From Paucibacter sp. KBW04 (GTDB lineage: Bacteria > Pseudomonadota > Gammaproteobacteria > Burkholderiales > Burkholderiaceae_C): DNA of 64,000 bases. Made by a program: the position numbers and the translations under genes. Under the pieces are notes generated by a model, which worked only from the letters and a program-made list of their open reading frames with translations, made no database searches and was not told the origin of the DNA. The stretch is from positions 62,001 to 126,000 of the forward strand of contig NZ_QAJN01000021.1 of the NCBI RefSeq assembly GCF_003852425.1. The letters run 5' to 3'. Below are positions 43,600-52,836 of the stretch, one piece after another. Position 1 is the first letter of the stretch; every line of letters starts with the position of its first letter.

Positions 43600-44955
43600 A
43601 TGGACCACAGCATCACACCCAGCCGCGCAGCCGCCAGCGGCGCCCCGGCCAGCAGCGCGCCCGAGCGCATCGACGCCAGCCGACTCAAGGCCATTCTGGT
43701 CGGCTCGGCTGGCAATTTGGTCGAGTGGTATGACTTCTACTGCTACGCGGCCTTCTCGCTCTACTTCGCCAACTCCTTCTTCCCGGCCCAGGATGCGACG
43801 GCGCAGATGATGTCCACCGCTGGCATCTTCGCCCTGGGGTTTTTTGTGCGGCCTCTGGGTGGCCTGCTGTTCGGCCGCATCGGCGACCGCCTGGGCCGCC
43901 GTCAGGCTTTGATGACCTCGGTGCTGCTGATGTGCTTGGGCTCGCTCATCATCGCCTGCGCCCCCACCTACGCCATGGTCGGCGCCTGGGCACCGGCCCT
44001 GCTGCTGCTGGCCCGCTTGCTGCAAGGCCTGAGCCTGGGCGGTGAGTACGGCTCCAGCGCCACGTACCTGTCCGAGATGGCCAGCTCCAAGCATCGGGGC
44101 TTCTATGCCAGCTTTCAGTACGTGACCCTGATCGGCGGGCAGCTGACGGCCTTGCTGGTGCTCCTGCTCTTGCAACATGTCTTCCTCAGCCCCGAGGAGC
44201 TGAAGGCCTGGGGCTGGCGCATCCCCTTCTTCATCGGCGCTCTGCTGGCGCTGATCGCCCTGGCCATGCGGCGCGAGATGCCCGAGACCGCCTCGTTTGA
44301 AAAGGCCAAGCGCCAAAGCGGCAAGCAGGCCCTGGGCGGCCTGCGCCAGCTGGCGCGCTACCCCAAGGAGGTGATGGTGGTGGTGGGCCTGACCATGGGC
44401 GGCACCCTGGCCTTCTACGTCTACACGACCTATATGCAGAAGTTCCTGCGCCTCTCGGTCGGCCTGACGGATGCGCAGACCACGGCCGTCTCGGCCGCCT
44501 CCCTGGTCTTCGCCATGTGCTTGCAGCCGCTTTACGGCGCCTTGTCGGACCGCATCGGCCGCCGCCCCTTGCTCTTGGGCTTTGCCGTGCTGGGCACTTT
44601 GTTCACCGTGCCTTTGCTGACGGCGATTCGACATGCTCAGGGCCCCTGGGAAGCCTTCGGCCTGATCGCGATTGCCTGGTTGATTCTGTCGGGCTACACC
44701 TCGATCAACGCGGTGGTGAAGGCCGAGATGTTTCCTGCCGCCATTCGCACCACCGGCGTGGGCGTGCCCTACGCCGTGGCAGTGTCGCTGTTCGGCGGCA
44801 CGGCCGAGTACATCGCCCTGTGGTTCAAGCAAGCTGGCAATGAGAGCGGCTTTTACTGGTACGCCACCGCCGTCATCGCCTGCACCTTGCTGGTCTATCT
44901 GGGCATGCGCGACACGCAGAAGCATTCGCAGATTGATGCGGAAGAGCGGGCCTGA
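43600..44955 (+). CDS. MHS-family MFS transporter (KgtP-like carboxylate/H+ symporter)
   Basis: A 451-residue inner-membrane protein with 12 predicted helices. The start has AATAGGAGACC as Shine-Dalgarno. MHS-family marks are GNLVEWYDFYCYAAFSLYF at the first helix, FVRPLGGLLFGRIGDRLGRR (loop 2-3), QGLSLGGEYGSSATYLSE, and EMFPAAIRTTGVGVPYA. KgtP-like members import alpha-ketoglutarate or other carboxylates with protons. It is divergent from a DctB-like kinase and FixJ-like regulator that probably induce it. A terminator follows. The exact substrate is inferred. Confidence 0.9.
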   Translation: MDHSITPSRAAASGAPASSAPERIDASRLKAILVGSAGNLVEWYDFYCYAAFSLYFANSFFPAQDATAQMMSTAGIFALGFFVRPLGGLLFGRIGDRLGRRQALMTSVLLMCLGSLIIACAPTYAMVGAWAPALLLLARLLQGLSLGGEYGSSATYLSEMASSKHRGFYASFQYVTLIGGQLTALLVLLLLQHVFLSPEELKAWGWRIPFFIGALLALIALAMRREMPETASFEKAKRQSGKQALGGLRQLARYPKEVMVVVGLTMGGTLAFYVYTTYMQKFLRLSVGLTDAQTTAVSAASLVFAMCLQPLYGALSDRIGRRPLLLGFAVLGTLFTVPLLTAIRHAQGPWEAFGLIAIAWLILSGYTSINAVVKAEMFPAAIRTTGVGVPYAVAVSLFGGTAEYIALWFKQAGNESGFYWYATAVIACTLLVYLGMRDTQKHSQIDAEERA

Positions 44956-44980
44956 GCAAGCCCCTCAAGCTTGAAGAAAT

Positions 44981-45016
44981 AGGCCGGACCCTGGCGGAGC
45001 TCGGCCTTTTGTTTTT
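44981..45016 (+). terminator. rho-independent terminator after the MFS gene
   Basis: AGGCCG (44981-44986) pairs with CGGCCT (45002-45007), followed by TTTTGTTTTTTG. It lies 26 bp after the transporter stop. Confidence 0.75.
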
Positions 45017-45135
45017 TGCAGCGAGTCGAAGCTGGAGGCGCTTGCGGCTTCGGTGACTTTCCGCATGGCTTGGGCAAGGCTTGCGCTGCTATGGTGCGAG
45101 TCATCCAATCTTTCTGTCCAAACCGGAGTTCTCAC

Positions 45136-47172
45136 GTGCCCCCTCGTTCTATTGCCCTGGCCGCCGCCCTGTGCGCGGCCAGTTTTGCCCAAGCCGCCGC
45201 CATTCCCGAATTCGTGCCCGATGTGGACAAGAGCCAATCGGCCTGCAGCGACTTCAATGCCTGGGCCAATAACAACTGGATCAAGGCCAACCCCATCCCT
45301 TCGGACAAGAGCCGCTGGGGCGGCTTTGATCAGTTGGCCGAGAAGAGCCAGAACGCGCAGCGCAGCCTTGTTGAAGCGGCCGCCAAGAACGCCGACAAGG
45401 CCAAGCCCGGCTCCATCGAGCAAAAGATCGGCTGGATCTACCGCGCCGCCATGGACGAGGCCGCCATCGAGCGCGCCGGCTTCGACCCGATCAAGCAGGA
45501 CCTGGCCGCCATCGATGCACTGAAGAGCAGCGCCGACGTCGTCGCCTGGTTGCAGCAAAGCCATGCCCGCGGCGAGGGGCGAGCCTTCGGCTTCGGCGTC
45601 AGCGCCGATTACAAAAACGCCAAGCGCCAGATCGCCTTCGCCAGACAGGGCGGCCTGGGCCTGCCTGGCCCCGAGTACTACAGCAAGGACGAGTACGCCA
45701 AGCTGCGTGAGAGCTATCTGGCCCACATCGCCAGCAACTTCGAATTGACCGGCACAGCGGCTGACCAAGCCAAGTCGCGCGCGGCCCTGGTGATGGATCT
45801 GGAGAGCAAGTTGGCCGCTGCCTCCTTGCTGCGCGTGGAGCTTCGCAAGCCGGAGAATCAGTACAACTTTGTCACCATCGCGCAGGCCAACAAGATCACC
45901 CCGCACTGGGACTGGGCCCACTACTTCAAGATCATGAAGGTTGATGCTGGTGTTTCAGGCACGGGCGGCTTCTCGCTCTCGCAGCCCAAATTCTTCGCCG
46001 CCTTCGATGCCTTGCTGGAGCAAGCGCCGGTGGCGCAATGGCAGGCTTATTTCGCCTTCCACACCATCGATGGCGCCGCGCCCGCGCTGTCCAAAGCCTT
46101 CCAGGATCAGAACTTCGCCTTTTACGGCCGCGCCATCAACGGCACGCCCGAGCAGGAAGTGCGCTGGAAGCGCGCCCTGGGCGCCGTCAACAGCCATATG
46201 GGCCAAGCCCTGGGCCAGCTCTATGTGAAGGAATACTTCCCGCCCGAGGCCAAGGCCCGCGCGCAGGAGCTGGTCGATAAGGTCCGTAACGCTCTGAAAG
46301 CACGCATCGAAAACCTCGACTGGATGAGCCCCGAGACCAAGACCAAGGCCATCGCCAAGTGGGCGACTTTTCTGCCCAAGATCGCCTATCCCGACAGCTG
46401 GCGAGATTGGAGCGGCCTGAGCATCACGGCCGATAGCCACTACGCCAATGTGCGCGCGGCCCGCGTCTTCAATCAGCGCTTCTACCTCGCCAAGATCGGC
46501 AAGGAAACGGACCGCTACGAATGGAATATGACGCCGCAAACCGTCAACGCCTACTACAGCCCCTCCACCAACACCATCAACTTCCCCGCGGCCATCCTGC
46601 AGCCGCCCTTCTTCTACGCCAAGGGCGACGACGCCATTAACTTCGGTGGCATCGGCGCCGTTATCGGCCACGAGGCCGGCCATGGCTTCGATGACCAGGG
46701 CAGCCAGTTTGACGGCGAGGGCAATAACCTCAACTGGTGGACGGCCGAGGACCGCAAGCGCTTCGATGAGCGCGCCAACAAGCTGGTGGCCCAGGCCGAT
46801 GAATATGTCCCCATGGCCCAGTACCCAGACAAGCATGTCAACGGCCGCCTGACCTTGGGTGAAAACATCGGTGACCTCGGCGGGCTCAATATGGCCTACG
46901 ACGCCATGGTCCAGGCCACCGCCGGCCAGCCCGATCCCATGCTGGACGGCATGAGCCGCGACCAACGCTTCTTCATGAACTGGGCCAAGGTCTGGGCCAG
47001 CAGCATCCGGCCGGAGGCTCAACTGCTGCGCCTGAACACCGACCCGCATGCCCCGGCCAGCTTCCGCACCAATGCCGCCCCCTCCAATATGCCGGCCTTC
47101 GCCAAGGCCTATGGCTGCAAGCCGGGTGATGCGATGGTGAGGCCGGAAGACAAGCGGGTGCTCATCTGGTGA
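45136..47172 (+). CDS. M13-family zinc metallopeptidase (neprilysin/PepO-like), exported
   Basis: A 678-residue peptidase. The GTG at 45136 follows GGAG and starts a signal peptide (residues 1-20, ending AQAAA); ATG-based longer frames would bury this signal. The catalytic motif is IGHEAGHGFDDQG with H512, E513 and H516, and E576 in ENIGDLGGL is the third zinc ligand. NAYYSPSTNTINFPAAIL is the M13 substrate-binding segment. M13 peptidases trim small peptides in the periplasm or outside the cell. The gene stands alone, with a short gap to the beta-barrel gene on the opposite strand. Confidence 0.94.
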   Translation: MPPRSIALAAALCAASFAQAAAIPEFVPDVDKSQSACSDFNAWANNNWIKANPIPSDKSRWGGFDQLAEKSQNAQRSLVEAAAKNADKAKPGSIEQKIGWIYRAAMDEAAIERAGFDPIKQDLAAIDALKSSADVVAWLQQSHARGEGRAFGFGVSADYKNAKRQIAFARQGGLGLPGPEYYSKDEYAKLRESYLAHIASNFELTGTAADQAKSRAALVMDLESKLAAASLLRVELRKPENQYNFVTIAQANKITPHWDWAHYFKIMKVDAGVSGTGGFSLSQPKFFAAFDALLEQAPVAQWQAYFAFHTIDGAAPALSKAFQDQNFAFYGRAINGTPEQEVRWKRALGAVNSHMGQALGQLYVKEYFPPEAKARAQELVDKVRNALKARIENLDWMSPETKTKAIAKWATFLPKIAYPDSWRDWSGLSITADSHYANVRAARVFNQRFYLAKIGKETDRYEWNMTPQTVNAYYSPSTNTINFPAAILQPPFFYAKGDDAINFGGIGAVIGHEAGHGFDDQGSQFDGEGNNLNWWTAEDRKRFDERANKLVAQADEYVPMAQYPDKHVNGRLTLGENIGDLGGLNMAYDAMVQATAGQPDPMLDGMSRDQRFFMNWAKVWASSIRPEAQLLRLNTDPHAPASFRTNAAPSNMPAFAKAYGCKPGDAMVRPEDKRVLIW

Positions 47173-47251
47173 GCCCGGTGGCGCTCATCGGTTGAATGCA
47201 CAAGGGCCTGCACACATGCTTAGCCCTTCGCCAGCTTGCCTCGGCCGATGT

Positions 47252-48001
47252 TCAAAAACCAAGTTGCAGCGTCGCCAGCCAGCGCCGACCCGCGCGCCCG
47301 GCTTGGGCCAGGCCTTGGGCCTCGGCATTGCTGGCGATATGGCTGAGATGGCATTGCCAAGGCCCTTGCGACCAGCTCAGGTCGATGCTGCCGAAGACAT
47401 AGCTGCGCGGCTCGGCTGTTCGGTGAGCGTAAAGGCCCAGGCCCGCGTCGAGCGCCAGGCTGAGCGGCAAGTTCTGACGCAGCCCCAAGCTGGCGCTGAA
47501 GGCGGGCGCGCTGATCAAATTGTTCTGAGCATCGCGGCGGCTGATCTTGGGGAACCAGCTGCCGCTGAGGACCCAACGGCCTTGCCAGATCAAATGCCCG
47601 GCAAGCTCGTCGTAGTTGAAGTTGCTGCGCTGCTCGCTCCCCGGATAGGCCGCGTGGGCGTAGCCCAGCTCGCCGCTCCAGTCCTGATCCCATTGCCAGG
47701 TCCGTCCGAGTCGAGCGGATGTTTGCAGCACCCGGCCCTCGGCGTCACGATGCAAGGCGACGACGCCCAGATCCACGCCCCAGCCCGTGTCGCGCCGCCA
47801 AGCAAGATCCAAACTCTGGCTGCCCTGGCCCATACTGCGCGTGAGGCCGCGCACCACATAGTCGGTGGACAAAGCCAGGCTCAGGCCCCAGTCATCGGCT
47901 TGAGCCGGCTGGGCGACCCAGAGCATCGCGAGGCCAGTGAGCGTCCACACAGCCGAGGCCCGAGTCAGGGGTAAAACTTTTTTTCGAAAACAGGCAACCA
48001 T
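47252..48001 (-). CDS. TIGR02001-like outer-membrane beta-barrel protein
   Basis: A 249-residue exported protein. A signal peptide (about residues 1-35, ending QPAQA) precedes DDWGLSLALSTDYVVRGLTRSMG, which resembles the TIGR02001 family pattern of an N-terminal strand with YxxRGxTxS. Repeated amphipathic strands end in the barrel-like terminal F (TLQLGF). Function unknown. It is divergent from the ECF sigma gene with a 26-bp gap, so the promoters overlap and it may belong to the sigma regulon. Confidence 0.72.
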   Translation of the reverse strand: MVACFRKKVLPLTRASAVWTLTGLAMLWVAQPAQADDWGLSLALSTDYVVRGLTRSMGQGSQSLDLAWRRDTGWGVDLGVVALHRDAEGRVLQTSARLGRTWQWDQDWSGELGYAHAAYPGSEQRSNFNYDELAGHLIWQGRWVLSGSWFPKISRRDAQNNLISAPAFSASLGLRQNLPLSLALDAGLGLYAHRTAEPRSYVFGSIDLSWSQGPWQCHLSHIASNAEAQGLAQAGRAGRRWLATLQLGF

Positions 48002-48027
48002 AGACCTCCCTCCGGGTACTCACGGCC

Positions 48028-48666
48028 ATGATTTCCAAACCCTTTGCCGTCGACTCTGCGCTCGCGGCGGATGCTTTGGATAGACAGGAGTTGGCCGCAG
48101 CAGCGACGGGGGATCGTGCCGCTTTCGAGCGACTGTACCGTCGATACTTCGCGCGACTCAGTCGATTTTTGCGGCGCTTCAACCGCAGCCCTGAGTTGAT
48201 CGAGGACGTGGTCAACAAGACCTTGTGGGTGGTCTGGAACCGCGCTTCCGAGTTCCGCGGGGAGGCCAAGGTCAGCACCTGGATCATGGGCATCGCCTAT
48301 CGAACCCTGCTGAAAGCCCTGCGCGATGCTGAGCCGCTGTCGGCCAGCGAGCCCACCGGCAACACCGCTGGGGGCGATAGTCATCATGTGGACCCGCTGG
48401 CGCGCAGCGATCCAAGGCCCGAACAAGAGCTGCGGGATTGGCTGGCAAAAGGCCTGCAGCGCCTGCCCGAGGACTTGCGCATGACCTTGGAGCTGGCCTA
48501 TTTTCTGGGCCTGTCCTGTGCCGAGATCGGCCAGGTGATGGGCTGCGCCGAAGGCACGGTCAAAGCCCGTATGTTCAACGCCCGCTTGCGTCTGAGAAAC
48601 CTGATGCCGGCACTGGGAGGGCTAGACGCTAGCTCGGATGGCGCCCTCCGAAACCAACAAGGTTGA
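48028..48666 (+). CDS. ECF-type RNA polymerase sigma factor
   Basis: A 212-residue extracytoplasmic-function sigma factor. Region 2 is at residues 30-95 (RYFARLSRFLRRFNRSPELI, then EDVVNKTLWVVWNRASEF), with the -10-binding segment VSTWIMGIAYRTLL. Region 4 is at residues 150-195 (LPEDLRMTLELAYFLGLSCA, then EIGQVMGCAEGTVKARMF), which binds the -35 element. The anti-sigma gene starts 5 bp after the stop. The set with the subtilase gene makes a sigma/anti-sigma/protease unit. Targets are unknown; its own operon and the divergent beta-barrel gene are candidates. Confidence 0.93.
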   Translation: MISKPFAVDSALAADALDRQELAAAATGDRAAFERLYRRYFARLSRFLRRFNRSPELIEDVVNKTLWVVWNRASEFRGEAKVSTWIMGIAYRTLLKALRDAEPLSASEPTGNTAGGDSHHVDPLARSDPRPEQELRDWLAKGLQRLPEDLRMTLELAYFLGLSCAEIGQVMGCAEGTVKARMFNARLRLRNLMPALGGLDASSDGALRNQQG

Positions 48667-48671
48667 TCGCC

Positions 48672-49358
48672 ATGGATGCCTCATTTCAAGCGCAGGAATC
48701 GGCTCATGCACGAGCATGGGAACTGATCCCCTGGGTACTCAACGGCAGCGCTGATGCGGCCCAGCGCCAGAGCCTGGAGGCGCACTTGCTTCAGTGCGCG
48801 GATTGTCGCGAAGAGATGCACTTTCAGCAGCTGCTGCAGCAGGGCATGCAGCAAGACGCCGAGGGGCAGTGCGAATCGAGGGATGCCGACGTAGATGCGG
48901 CGCTGCGGCGTTTTTGGGCGCAGGACCAAGCGCCCATCGAAGCCGCCCCGCTTGCCAAAGAGGCGCGGCCTCGCTTCCTGGGCCTGGACTGGCCTCGCGC
49001 CATGGCCGCTGGCCTGCTCTTGCAGGCGGCGGCCCTGGGTGTTCTGTGGCAGCGCTACGCCGGTGTTGCCCATGACTACCAGGTGCTGAGCCAGCCGGCG
49101 GAGCAGGCGGTGGGAGTGGCACCCAGCATCCGTTTTGTGCCGGCGCCGCAAATGGCCTTGGGGGACTTGCAGGCCTTGCTGCAACGCCATCATCTGCGCT
49201 TGGTGCAGAGCAGCGCCGAGGGGCAATTTTTCGGCTTGGCACCCAGCCCGCAGGCCCGGGCTTCGGTCCCCGAGTTGGTGAAGGCTTTGCGTGCCGAACC
49301 CGGTGTTTTGCTGGCCGAGCCTTTGGGGCCGGCCGAGCCCGCGGCCTCGCAACCATGA
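48672..49358 (+). CDS. membrane anti-sigma factor with subtilase-propeptide-like periplasmic tail
   Basis: A 228-residue protein. The ATG at 48672 follows AAGG; a TTG at 48663 is less likely. Residues 15-50 contain a zinc-binding anti-sigma fold: HLLQCADC gives H-x3-C-x2-C. One helix (about residues 113-133) spans the inner membrane. The periplasmic part at residues 163-221 (LGDLQALLQRHHLRLVQ, EGQFFGLAP, VPELVKALRAEPGVLLAEPL) has the alpha-beta-alpha-beta order of an I9/propeptide domain. Its last segment matches the propeptide of the neighbouring subtilase (RVLQRLQADDRVALAQPL). The stop overlaps that gene by 4 bp. Confidence 0.85.
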   Translation: MDASFQAQESAHARAWELIPWVLNGSADAAQRQSLEAHLLQCADCREEMHFQQLLQQGMQQDAEGQCESRDADVDAALRRFWAQDQAPIEAAPLAKEARPRFLGLDWPRAMAAGLLLQAAALGVLWQRYAGVAHDYQVLSQPAEQAVGVAPSIRFVPAPQMALGDLQALLQRHHLRLVQSSAEGQFFGLAPSPQARASVPELVKALRAEPGVLLAEPLGPAEPAASQP

Positions 49359-50653
49359 GTGCAGGCCGCCTGTTCACGCTACTGCTCGCGCTAGGCCTGG
49401 GCTTGATCTGGCCCAGCGCCTTTGCCACCCAGCCTGGGGCTTTGATGGATGAGGAGGGGAGCGAGACCCTGCTGATCGTGGCACTCGCCGACAAGGGCTT
49501 CAGCCTGCCGCCCGTGGGCGGAACACCGCGCGCGGCCTACGGGGCGAGCCAGACTTATGCGGCGAGCCCGTCCACGCAGACGCTCGCCGCCGAGATTGCA
49601 CGGAGCCATGGTTTGGCGTGGCGTGCGGCCTGGACGATTGCGCCCCTGAAGCTGCACTGCATCTTGTTCCGCATCAGCTCGGGGCAGGACCGGGATCGAG
49701 TGCTGCAGCGCTTGCAGGCCGACGACCGTGTCGCCCTGGCCCAGCCGCTCAATCAGTTTGAGACTTTGGGCGAGGCCAGCGCAGCCGCCGAATTCAACGA
49801 CCCCTATTGGCCTTTGCAGCGCGGCTTCGCGCGCATGGAGGTGATCGAAGCGCAGCGGTGGACGCGCGGGGAGGGCGTGAAAGTCGCCTTGATCGACACC
49901 GGCTTGGACGCTCGCCATCCCGACCTGCTGGGGCGGGTGCAACTGCAACGAGATTTCGTCGGCCCTGCGCATCCGCCCCCTCCCCAAGGTGAGCGACATG
50001 GGACGCAGATGGCAGGCGTGATCGCCGCCGTGGCCAACAATCAGATCGGCATCGTGGGTATGGCGCCGCAGGCTCGCTTGCTGTCTTTTCGCGCCTGTTG
50101 GGAGCGGGACGCTGCGGCCGCCCGTTGCGACAGTTTCACCCTGGCCCAGGCCTTGGGGGCCGCTATCGCGGCAGAGGCGGACATCATCAATCTCAGTCTG
50201 GGCGGCCCGGCGGATCCCTTGCTGAGCCTCTTGACGGGATACGCGCTCAAGCGTGGTGTTTGGGTGCTGGGGGCCTTGCCCCTCAATGGCAGTTTGCAGG
50301 GCTTTCCAGCTAACGTGGCGGGTGTGCAGACCGTGAGCATGGAGCCCGAAGGGGCGGATGCTGCCGCCGGCGTGGCGGGCGAATCGGCCTCGCTGCTGGC
50401 ACCGGGCCGTGAGGTGCTGACCTTGAGCCCGGGCGGGCGATATGACTACGCCAGTGGCAGTTCCCTGGCGACCGCCCATGCCACGGGCCTCGCCGCCTTG
50501 TTGCGATCCCTGCCCTTGCAGGGCACTAGCGTTCAGCGCTCTTTGCGCGAACTGCTTGCGCCCGCCGGTACGGGCCCGAGCCTCAATGCCTGCCAGGCCT
50601 TGAAAGCGCTGCGGCCTCAGCAACAGTGCCGAGGGCTGGCCAAGACTCCCTAG
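49355..50653 (+). CDS. S8-family subtilisin-like serine protease, exported
   Basis: A 432-residue protease with a signal peptide (residues 1-25) and a propeptide at about residues 77-138. The triad is D181 (VALIDTGLD), H215 (GERHGTQMAG) and S370 (ASGSSLATAHATG, in place of the common GTSMA). The oxyanion-hole region includes INLSLGG. It is translationally coupled to the anti-sigma gene by an ATGA overlap. The propeptide resembles the anti-sigma periplasmic tail. No membrane anchor or sorting signal is seen at its C-terminus, so it is probably periplasmic or secreted. The substrate is unproven; the anti-sigma tail is a candidate. Confidence 0.9.
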   Translation: MSAGRLFTLLLALGLGLIWPSAFATQPGALMDEEGSETLLIVALADKGFSLPPVGGTPRAAYGASQTYAASPSTQTLAAEIARSHGLAWRAAWTIAPLKLHCILFRISSGQDRDRVLQRLQADDRVALAQPLNQFETLGEASAAAEFNDPYWPLQRGFARMEVIEAQRWTRGEGVKVALIDTGLDARHPDLLGRVQLQRDFVGPAHPPPPQGERHGTQMAGVIAAVANNQIGIVGMAPQARLLSFRACWERDAAAARCDSFTLAQALGAAIAAEADIINLSLGGPADPLLSLLTGYALKRGVWVLGALPLNGSLQGFPANVAGVQTVSMEPEGADAAAGVAGESASLLAPGREVLTLSPGGRYDYASGSSLATAHATGLAALLRSLPLQGTSVQRSLRELLAPAGTGPSLNACQALKALRPQQQCRGLAKTP

Positions 50654-50770
50654 TTTGACGGGCCGGCGGCGCAACGATTGGCGTCGCCCGGGGTACTCAT
50701 CCACAGCCGCCGCAATCTGCGCAGGCCTCTTGAACTTGATGGATGTTTGACCTTCAACCGGGAACAAAAA

Positions 50771-51439
50771 ATGAAGCACAGCGCAATGAATACCGCTTAT
50801 GCGGCCTGCTCGGCACTCCTGCTGGGTGTGGCCGCCTTGGCTGCCTCGCCAGCGCAGGCGGTGACGGTGGGAGACCCCACGGGGGACTTTCTGAGCACCT
50901 ACAAAGGCGCCCAGACCGGCGAGTTTGATGTGGTCGCCAGCTGGGTCAATTACGACCCCAACCGCGACGTCTTCCAACTCTCCGCCACCATGGCGGGCAA
51001 TATCTCGCCGACCTCCTTGGCCGCCTATGTCTGGGGCTTCGACCGCGGGCATGGCACGGCAGCCTTCGGCAGCAGTTTGGGCCTGACACAGGTGCTGTTC
51101 GATCGAACCGTGGTGGTGAACGCCAATGGCTCCATCGTCAGCGGGGGCGTCAACGTCGGCACGGCCACCATCTTTGGCTCCACCATCACGGCCACCATCG
51201 CCGGCTCGGTCTTGCCAGAGAACGGCTTCAGCAAGGCCAACTACACCTGGAATCTGTGGCCGCGCTTCACAGGTACCAGCTTCAATGGCGTGACGGTCTC
51301 GGGCGTGTCTGCGATCCCCGACTTCGCCCCCAACACCGTCAACGCCGCGGTGACGGCCGTGCCCGAACCCTCATCCCTGGCCTTGATGGTGCTGGGGCTG
51401 GGCGGCTTTGCCTGGCTGCGTCGTCGCCAGCAGAGCTGA
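50771..51439 (+). CDS. PEP-CTERM sorting-domain protein (2)
   Basis: A 222-residue exported protein. The ATG at 50771 follows CGGGAACAAAAA and starts a signal peptide (residues 1-31, ending SPAQAV). The body is predicted beta with a Gly/Thr-rich middle. The end VPEPSSLALMVLGLGGFAWL plus RRRQQS is the PEP-CTERM signal processed by exosortase. It lies 117 bp after the subtilase gene on the same strand and may belong to the same sigma-controlled unit. It is not closely similar to the PEP-CTERM protein at 5798 outside the sorting signal. Confidence 0.87.
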   Translation: MKHSAMNTAYAACSALLLGVAALAASPAQAVTVGDPTGDFLSTYKGAQTGEFDVVASWVNYDPNRDVFQLSATMAGNISPTSLAAYVWGFDRGHGTAAFGSSLGLTQVLFDRTVVVNANGSIVSGGVNVGTATIFGSTITATIAGSVLPENGFSKANYTWNLWPRFTGTSFNGVTVSGVSAIPDFAPNTVNAAVTAVPEPSSLALMVLGLGGFAWLRRRQQS

Positions 51440-51653
51440 GCGCAGGCGAACTGCGGCCTCCCAAGGCGTGGCATTCTCTGAGTGGCGCCGCCTTGGGGCC
51501 AGAGTCGCCCTGGGGCTTTGTGCGCGAGCCCTCCGCGCCCCGGCGTGAGGTGATCGCACAAGTCGAGGGCCGAGGCTTGGTGAGCCGCATGCAGATGACG
51601 CGGCAATTGCTGGACAGTTTTTGACCTCAATGTTTGCCGTTCAGGCTGCGGGG
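51440..51653. other. intergenic region after the second PEP-CTERM gene
   Basis: 214 bp. A plus-strand frame through it could encode about 60 residues ending MTRQLLDSF, but it has no start codon with a Shine-Dalgarno and no family I recognise. I leave it unassigned. Confidence 0.4.
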
Positions 51654-52208
51654 CTAGGCTGAGAAATCAAGGTCCTTGCTTGCCACCACGCCGGTCGTCC
51701 TGCCGGGTGCCGATTCATAGGCCCAGTAGAGATTGGTGTGGGCAATGACCTGCTCGGGTGGCGGCGCACCCCACTTTGAGTAATCGTCTGTGGTGTGGGC
51801 ATCGCTCACCAGCACAACGTCATAACCTCGTACATGAGCGCCATGCAGGCTTGAGCGAATACAGGCGTCGGTCTGCGCGCCCACCACAACGAGCTTGCCG
51901 ACTTGAAGCTCATGCAGCGCGGCTTCGAGAGAGGTGTCTTCGAAGGCGTCCCCGTAGTGCTTGTCCACGCGCAACTCTGCTTTGTTGGGCACGAGTTCGG
52001 GGACGATTTGCCAGGCGTCGCTGTCCTTCGGCAGTTCGGCGCTGGTGTGCTGCACCCAGATCACCGGGGTCTGGCTTTGCCTTGCTTTCGCCACCACCTC
52101 CGCCACATGGTCGATCACCGCGGCACGCGCATGTGCTGCGGCCAAGACCTTGTTCTGCATGTCGATGACGAGCAAGGCGGTGTGGGGTCTGTTCTTGAGC
52201 GCAGTCAT
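51654..52208 (-). CDS. isochorismatase-family cysteine hydrolase
   Basis: A 184-residue cytosolic hydrolase. The ATG at 52208 follows CGGAGAAACGG, a good Shine-Dalgarno; the frame continues 43 codons upstream without homology. Catalytic triad positions are readable: Asp in LLVIDMQNKV, Lys in LRVDKHYGDAFEDT and Cys in VVVGAQTDACIRSSLHGA. The family includes nicotinamidases and isochorismatases; sequence alone does not fix the substrate. It is divergent from the second TfoX-like gene. Confidence 0.88.
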   Translation of the reverse strand: MTALKNRPHTALLVIDMQNKVLAAAHARAAVIDHVAEVVAKARQSQTPVIWVQHTSAELPKDSDAWQIVPELVPNKAELRVDKHYGDAFEDTSLEAALHELQVGKLVVVGAQTDACIRSSLHGAHVRGYDVVLVSDAHTTDDYSKWGAPPPEQVIAHTNLYWAYESAPGRTTGVVASKDLDFSA

Positions 52209-52509
52209 CCGTTTCTCCGATTGATGAGTTGGGTCACTGAGTTGGACGGGGCCGCCTCCTCGGGCGCCTGGATCAAGCATAGTGAGGAAGGCCGTGCTGT
52301 GCTCATGCACAGGGCGGTGGGAACCCGACAATCGCACCTGTCTGAATCAAACATTCAGGTTCGGATGAAGGTTCGCTTAGTTTCAAGGCCTGAGCCTTGG
52401 CGCCCGCCTAGCCACTTGGTTCAGCCTGTTCTCGCCACTGATTGCGCTGGCACACCGGGATCGTTAACCTGCTTCGGTCTACGCAGCTTTTTTTAAAAAG
52501 GGACCTGGC
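52209..52509. promoter_or_regulatory. divergent region between the hydrolase and TfoX-like genes
   Basis: 301 bp with no gene. It contains a short hairpin CTGAAT-CAAAC-ATTCAG near 52341-52357 and the A/T stretch CTTTTTTTAAAAAG just before the TfoX-like Shine-Dalgarno. No known regulator site was recognised. Confidence 0.4.
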
Positions 52510-52836
52510 ATGCCTTTCGATCCTCACCTGGCCGATTTGATGCGAACAGCCTTGGCGGGCCGCCCAGGCGTTCAGGAGAAGAAGATGTTCGGCGGCTTCT
52601 GCTGGATGCTGCACGGCCACATGCTTTGTGGTGTCGAAGTGGGCCGTTTCATGTTCAGGGTGGGCAAGGATTTGGAAGCAGAGGCGCTCTCTCGGCCCGG
52701 CGCAAAGCCAATGGACATCACGGGCAAGCCAATGCGCGGCATCGTCTGGGTCAACGCCGACGATGCCATCGATGCGGGGCTCGGCAACTGGATTGAATTG
52801 GCCGCTCGCTTCGCAAACTCACTGCCGCCCAAGTAG
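52510..52836 (+). CDS. TfoX/Sxy N-terminal-domain protein, short
   Basis: A 108-residue single-domain protein. The core KKMFGGFCWMLHGHMLCGVE, then FMFRVGKD and MRGIVWV, is the TfoX-N pattern, shared with the gene at 27976 but lacking its basic tail. The ATG follows AAAGGGACCTGGC. Relatives are widespread and mostly uncharacterised; a direct competence role is not implied. It is divergent from the hydrolase gene and convergent with metF. Confidence 0.82.
   Translation: MPFDPHLADLMRTALAGRPGVQEKKMFGGFCWMLHGHMLCGVEVGRFMFRVGKDLEAEALSRPGAKPMDITGKPMRGIVWVNADDAIDAGLGNWIELAARFANSLPPK

Follow-up and report, generated by a model that had tools for sequence, protein, structure and literature searches.

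A sigma factor, an anti-sigma factor with a prodomain-like tail and a subtilase in one Paucibacter operon: a candidate protease-gated switch

In the sigma-E system of Escherichia coli, the membrane anti-sigma factor RseA is cut by an envelope protease and subsequently by RseP and ClpXP, as set out in PMC10028731. The same paper describes Craspase (Csx29/Csx30/CASP-sigma), in which a co-encoded caspase-like TPR-CHAT protease cleaves a sigma-factor inhibitor. For the ECF54 group of extracytoplasmic function (ECF) sigma factors, subtilase and CHAT proteins are found in the genetic context, and PMC8999054 proposes a role for proteolysis. Here we analyze a stretch of 64,000 nucleotides from Paucibacter sp. 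KBW04 (contig NZ_QAJN01000021.1, positions 62,001 to 126,000, forward strand; hereafter 'the window'), which carries genes for an ECF sigma factor, a membrane anti-sigma factor and an S8 subtilase. The central observation is that three partners are found together across Pseudomonadota: a sigma factor, an anti-sigma factor whose tail is prodomain-like, and an S8 protease that retains its catalytic triad. We examine what kind of control this arrangement might exert, and which segment of the anti-sigma factor is the better candidate for cleavage.

The operon and the tail of its anti-sigma factor

The three genes form one operon:

48028..48666, + strand, ECF sigma factor of 212 residues (Pfam Sigma70_r4_2, 48.7 bits, and Sigma70_r2, 39.9 bits, both over the cut-off)
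48672..49358, + strand, membrane anti-sigma factor of 228 residues, with a zinc-type domain, one predicted transmembrane helix, a linker and a prodomain-like tail
49355..50653, + strand, S8 subtilase with propeptide, 432 residues, probably exported (Pfam Peptidase_S8, PF00082, 95.2 bits against a cut-off of 21.8)

A trio of sigma, zinc-type anti-sigma and exported subtilase genes had been proposed from the letters of the window alone (the original prediction), and it is borne out by gene calls and Pfam domains, export being only probable. The anti-sigma and subtilase genes overlap by 4 bases, and an alternative TTG start at 48663 is also open for the anti-sigma gene. A homologue of the sigma factor is present in 32 of 33 loci, the window counted in. 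The anti-sigma factor is divided as follows:

48714..48809, + strand, zf-HC2 domain (Pfam range), anti-sigma residues 15-46, with H38, C42 and C45
48990..49061, + strand, predicted transmembrane helix, residues 107-130 (helix in the model, hydrophobic by eye, topology inferred)
49077..49091, + strand, juxtamembrane motif Y136-Q-V-L139-S140, predicted cut after L139 (conservation and motif counts)
49125..49325, + strand, prodomain-like tail, residues 152-218

Conservation was read from an alignment of anti-sigma factors from 27 of the 33 loci, in which the N-terminus of the L014 row appears misassigned; L025, L026, L027, L029 and L030 (no S8) and L031 (a repeat of L003) were left out. The zf-HC2 domain, which scores 28.2 bits in the window's protein against a cut-off of 22.2, is matched in 26 of these 27 rows, H38 being invariant and C42 and C45 conserved in at least 90%. 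With this match and its H-x3-C-x2-C motif, the window's protein has the features that define ZAS anti-sigma factors.

The original prediction held that the tail folds like the propeptide domain of the subtilase, with both in an alpha-beta-alpha-beta order. Predicted structures of the two domains and structural matches uphold the first point; as for the second, the order is indeed shared, and the models extend it to beta-alpha-beta-beta-alpha-beta in both. The tail is thus predicted to have the subtilase-prodomain fold. Prodomains rank first among its structural matches by a narrow margin, ACT domains and other ferredoxin-like folds scoring close to them. The two strings quoted as the ends of tail and propeptide are both present in the window and share 7 of 18 identities; 30 of 109,865 background 18-mers score equally high against the tail string, in a background that includes relatives of both domains. 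The window's pair proves little alone, because a direct BLASTP of tail against propeptide finds nothing at E <= 100.

At the family level, profile comparison makes the resemblance firm: the tail profile aligns with the partner-propeptide profile at an hhalign value of 90.8% over 56 columns, and 33 decoys reach at most 1.7%. Scanned at E up to 10, PF22148 (Fervidolysin N-terminal prodomain) matches 14 of the 27 anti-sigma factors (best 2.6e-5) and 4 of 25 subtilases (best 0.011), with no match to the window's own anti-sigma factor or subtilase. When the tail profile was searched against Protein Data Bank sequences, no prodomain was listed; the top entry is a lectin (E 0.0023), none of whose stretches passes individually.

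Protease partners across genomes

We screened 397 genomes across the phylum with the anti-sigma profile, and 91 had a match. Redundancy in the pooled set was removed only for identical last 120 residues, and several rows per genus stay (about ten from g254). The stretch fetched for most tail-bearing loci was 1.5 kb on each side. As tail-less controls, 40 N-terminal-only matches were chosen by hand, with 3 kb flanks, and L115 and L161 were added with 1.5 kb flanks; L074, picked as one of these controls, proved to have a tail and an S8 gene and was reassigned.

Among 90 tail-bearing anti-sigma factors, the sequence fetched contains an S8 gene for 64 and a C14 (caspase-like) gene for 23, L112 and L183 being assigned to the C14 class by hand after follow-up of their neighbours, and 3 have neither (L012, L042 and L155); no S8 or C14 gene occurs in the fetched stretch of any of the 41 tail-less ones. 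The original prediction, in which zinc-type anti-sigma factors with such a tail lie next to S8 genes, therefore holds for 64 of the 90 and fails for the other 23 and 3. In the strict sense, then, the tail does not mimic the propeptide of its own subtilase.

The 23 C14-partnered anti-sigma factors are spread over 21 loci, and Pfam confirmed the caspase domain in all 10 C14 neighbours checked. Their tails align with the S8-type tails at an hhalign value of 96.0 over 62 columns and, judged by this comparison, belong to the same family; 4 of 6 such relatives also match zf-HC2 (best 5.1e-5). The association is kept where the S8 gene lies upstream of the sigma gene (L046, L048) and where the anti-sigma gene is on the opposite strand (L110, L111). 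S8-partnered rows of the sigma tree come from 12 family codes, and C14-partnered rows of the anti-sigma tree from f1 and f4 only. Genomes G143, G227 and G118 contain both versions, and such coexistence would call for separate specificities. Four genomes whose tails have no S8 neighbour were searched for S8 elsewhere: G630, G232 and G189 gave no match at E <= 0.001, and G091 has nine matches, none of them beside its C14-partnered anti-sigma factor.

Closer to the window, its own genome holds one match to the anti-sigma factor, and another Paucibacter genome (locus L033) has the complete set, with a subtilase 77% identical to the window's. The distribution is patchy, since three genomes of the same genus (G013, G144, G228) have no anti-sigma match at E <= 0.001. 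A plasmid collection likewise gave no match to the anti-sigma factor.

Several loci show further arrangements. A tandem pair of caspase-like genes lies near the C14-type anti-sigma gene in L029, L030, L143 and L144. L112 and L113 are longer tail-bearing anti-sigma-like proteins beside a caspase-domain gene, among genes that look by eye like type VI secretion genes. In L114 and L183/L191, two tail-bearing anti-sigma factors with linkers of the M/T-R-G type lie close together near one C14 gene. L042/L117 (G630) carry the motif YSMLN, either as an orphan or served by another protease. The linkers of L155/L190 (tail-bearing, V-I-W-R-G-T-G) and L161 (scored tail-less, L-A-W-R-G-A-G) look related, and no S8 or C14 gene lies within the stretches fetched for them.

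Candidate cut site, proposed mechanism and rival explanations

The proposed target must be compared with the subtilase's own processing site, and the protease is mapped as follows (alignment of 25 of 27 subtilases, leaving out L017, with an untrimmed start, and L031):

49355..49426, + strand, probable Sec signal peptide, subtilase residues 1-24 (by eye: hydrophobic core, A-F-A end)
49469..49753, + strand, propeptide domain, about residues 39-133 (model)
49757..49768, + strand, predicted self-processing site F135-E-T-L138 (aromatic P4 in relatives; strand 134-138 in the model)
49895..49897, + strand, catalytic Asp181 (invariant in the 25 rows)
49997..49999, + strand, catalytic His215 (invariant in the 25 rows)
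50462..50464, + strand, catalytic Ser370 (at least 90% in the 25 rows; the L032 sequence ends just short of the position)

PF00082 is matched in all 25 aligned subtilases. The model of the window's subtilase has a predicted TM-score (pTM) of 0.83, and its best Foldseek match is unautoprocessed pro-subtilisin E (E 1.2e-22). The modelled propeptide consists of strand 39-45, helix 72-84, strands 87-95 and 100-107, helix 113-122 and strand 128-131. An aromatic P4 is found at the subtilases' own junction in 24 of the 25 rows. The distance between AQPL and F-E-T-L matches that in the BPN' prosegment. PADLOC returned nothing more specific than general subtilase and caspase models.

Three cysteines are invariant in the 25 subtilases: C102 of the propeptide (49658-49660) and C248 (50096-50098) and C258 (50126-50128) of the catalytic domain. 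The propeptide cysteine co-occurs with the catalytic pair among S8 partners, distant partners being without it. A disulfide that anchors the propeptide, and hence redox control, is possible.

In the anti-sigma factor, the linker between the transmembrane helix and the tail is disordered in the model (predicted local distance difference test, pLDDT, below 50 at 133-139 and 141-146), and despite this predicted disorder L139 is conserved in at least 90% of the 27 rows. The pattern [FYW]xx[LAFQSM][SGATN] occurs in the linkers of 62 of the 64 S8-partnered anti-sigma factors, of 2 of the 23 C14-partnered ones and of 2 of 30 tail-less ones (11 of the 41 were left out, as no transmembrane stretch was found). 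The linker motif (YQVLS in the window) is similar to FETL, where the subtilase is predicted to process itself. Compared position by position, linkers agree with the junctions of their own subtilases more than shuffles do at P3 only (7 of 25, p 0.0023; within a single clade 7 of 10, p 0.032) and not at P4, P2 or P1; the P3 agreement carries no weight in our conclusions because the shuffles ignore ancestry.

All 23 C14-partnered linkers have an arginine followed by a small residue, which fits the preference of metacaspases and orthocaspases for arginine. The loose form of this pattern, xR[ASGTN], is weak alone, since it is also common in S8-partnered (22 of 64) and tail-less (14 of 30) linkers. 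Ten C14-partnered linkers found later (L138, L140-L147 and L153) all have the arginine, but the profile that retrieved them itself held it. For the three R-type linkers that had no known protease, a C14 gene was confirmed in two (L112 and L183) and not in L155.

The tail itself is probably not where the cut lies, and the juxtamembrane linker is the better candidate. The original prediction allowed cleavage of the tail in the manner of a propeptide. A cut at the propeptide-like end is unlikely and was set aside as first choice: the tail ends are without the aromatic P4 that marks the site where the subtilase itself is processed, and 24 of 27 tails do not extend beyond the position corresponding to P1, stopping 2 to 6 residues past the AEPL block. 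The window's tail, which runs 10 residues past the block, is among the three exceptions; the shortest, in L004 and L007, end 2 residues past it. The tail has no C-terminal segment to fill S4-S1 of the protease.

These tail ends also bear on an alternative that we regard as unlikely, in which the tail acts in trans as an inhibitor that silences the mature protease at the membrane, like a cut propeptide whose C-terminus is free, while a DegS-like protease makes the first cut. That 24 of 27 tails stop roughly at the end of a processed propeptide speaks for it, as does the prodomain fold of the tail. Such an inhibitor leaves the conserved disordered linker, and its difference between S8 and C14 partners, unexplained, and the shortest tails are too short for the S1 site.

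We lean instead, by a modest preference, towards a self-contained protease-gated ECF switch, in which the tail would dock the protease, the linker would be cut and an RseP-type step would free the sigma factor. The zinc-type domain would keep the sigma factor at the inner membrane. The exported subtilase would process itself at F-E-T-L, its propeptide holding the protease until an envelope signal frees it; the anti-sigma tail could then take the face of the catalytic domain to which the propeptide binds. In ferredoxin-like folds the start of strand 1 adjoins the end of strand 4, and for this reason a docked tail would bring the juxtamembrane stretch Y-Q-V-L|S-Q close to the active site, for the subtilase to cut. 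A site-2 protease of the RseP type would complete the cleavage and release the sigma factor. One M50 (RseP-type) gene is present in the genome (217.6 bits), which is weak support because all 14 control genomes also have M50.

More tentatively, this switch might be one of a modular class in the envelope of Pseudomonadota. The tail would dock a dedicated exported protease, a linker site that follows this protease's cleavage preference would be cut, and evolution would have swapped S8 and C14 along with the matching cut site (aromatic-x-x-Leu/Ala|Ser/Gly for the one, Arg|Ala/Ser/Gly for the other), giving several insulated protease-sigma channels within a cell. To our knowledge, the proteases that make the first cut in anti-sigma factors have mostly been discovered case by case. 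If the class is real, the sequence of an anti-sigma factor would point to its protease, since both the docking domain and the cut motif can be recognized in it. Partner proteases could then be predicted in many genomes, and with them their cut sites and the signalling pairs that are insulated from one another. A definite part in signalling would fall to small periplasmic subtilases and to the exported caspase-like proteases of bacteria, and prodomains would have been reused as signalling adaptors.

Several results weigh against the proposed switch. The protease class changes only 3 times on the anti-sigma tree built without the linker (87 rows), and likewise 3 times on the sigma tree (80 rows); the anti-sigma tree yields 1 independent pair from well-supported branches and 3 from all branches. 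Because the protease class seldom changes, the link between motif and protease rests on few events (1 to 3 independent switches), and with so few independent changes on the trees the Fisher p of 8e-16 for aromatic motif against protease class overstates the evidence. The original prediction also named co-variation of tail and propeptide as a check, and beyond the general tree they do not co-vary (partial Mantel over 24 loci, r 0.05, p 0.21). Co-variation with the catalytic domain is seen for the tail (0.455, p 0.0005, 24 loci), but also for the anti-sigma N-terminus used as a control (0.265, p 0.0005). The linker patterns were defined after part of the data was known. L058 and L154 are S8-partnered and yet lack the motif, while L042 has a tail and an S8-type motif in a genome without an S8 match at E <= 0.001, and L155 has an R-type linker with no C14 gene in the 12.5 kb fetched. 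P1 is mostly Leu or Ala in the linkers and often Gln at the subtilases' own junction. PF22148 matches none of the 6 C14-partnered anti-sigma factors scanned. Finally, the usual oxyanion-hole Asn (A-A-G-N) is absent in the window's subtilase clade, where the window reads G-A-L-P-L, and the activity of its subtilase may be low because this Asn is lacking; A-A-G-N or a close form is found in many distant S8 partners, by an automatic extraction that in some rows lacks context. Two findings stand: S8-partnered rows keep the aromatic motif on both sides of a well-supported branch, and C14-partnered rows, confined to one side of it, are without the motif.

The few switches of protease class are also what one would expect if the tail sensed a ligand or an outer-membrane protein, the link to protease class reflecting shared ancestry and the linker motif being an old clade feature and no cut site. 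We consider this improbable, although the ferredoxin-like folds that score near the prodomains, ACT domains included, would suit it, as would a neighbouring gene:

47255..48001, - strand, TorF-like putative outer-membrane porin, divergent from the sigma gene (TIGR02001, 28.7 bits, below the cut-off of 47.15)

Counting the window, 15 distinct loci have a homologue of this porin beside the module. It may be a target of the switch or a source of its signal. Relative to the sigma gene, the porin gene is divergent at some loci and points the same way at others. The porin C-termini that were read (window, L031 and L121) all end in Phe, a terminal residue frequent in outer-membrane barrels. On the 3' side of the operon, a PEP-CTERM protein gene is found in the window (50771-51436) and in the Paucibacter locus L033 (5363-6028), most other loci having been fetched over stretches too short to tell.

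Least probable of all is a chaperone domain that folds the protease at the membrane, as ordinary protease regulation with no signal from protease to sigma factor: subtilase prodomains do act as folding helpers and the co-occurrence with the protease is tight, but the S8 partner comes with a propeptide of its own, we know of no use of such a prodomain-like domain by C14 proteases, and the conserved linker motif would be left unexplained.

Comparison with known systems

The protease-gated switch proposed here shares with RseA/DegS/RseP a membrane anti-sigma factor and a proposed cut by an envelope protease, and the genome holds a single M50 gene; it differs in having a dedicated protease, S8 or C14, encoded alongside and in that the anti-sigma tail has the predicted fold of a protease prodomain. 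With Craspase it has in common a protease encoded beside the sigma-inhibiting protein, cleavage here being proposed from sequence. Craspase is, however, activated by RNA and linked to CRISPR (clustered regularly interspaced short palindromic repeats), whereas here the proteases seem, by eye, to bear export signals and the anti-sigma factor is membrane-bound and prodomain-tailed. None of the genes at 44077-52833 of the window looks CRISPR-effector-like by eye, no CRISPR-specific search having been made. From ECF54 the system differs in that the link to the protease is carried by the anti-sigma factor.

Subtilisin propeptides (I9/PF22148) resemble the tail in predicted fold and, in 14 of the 27 homologues though not in the window's own tail, by a profile match at E up to 10; here the domain is the C-terminal part of an anti-sigma factor and stands in trans to the protease, without the P4-P1 segment. 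We found no account of a prodomain-tailed anti-sigma factor in the literature searched, which did not cover bioRxiv and most subscription papers.

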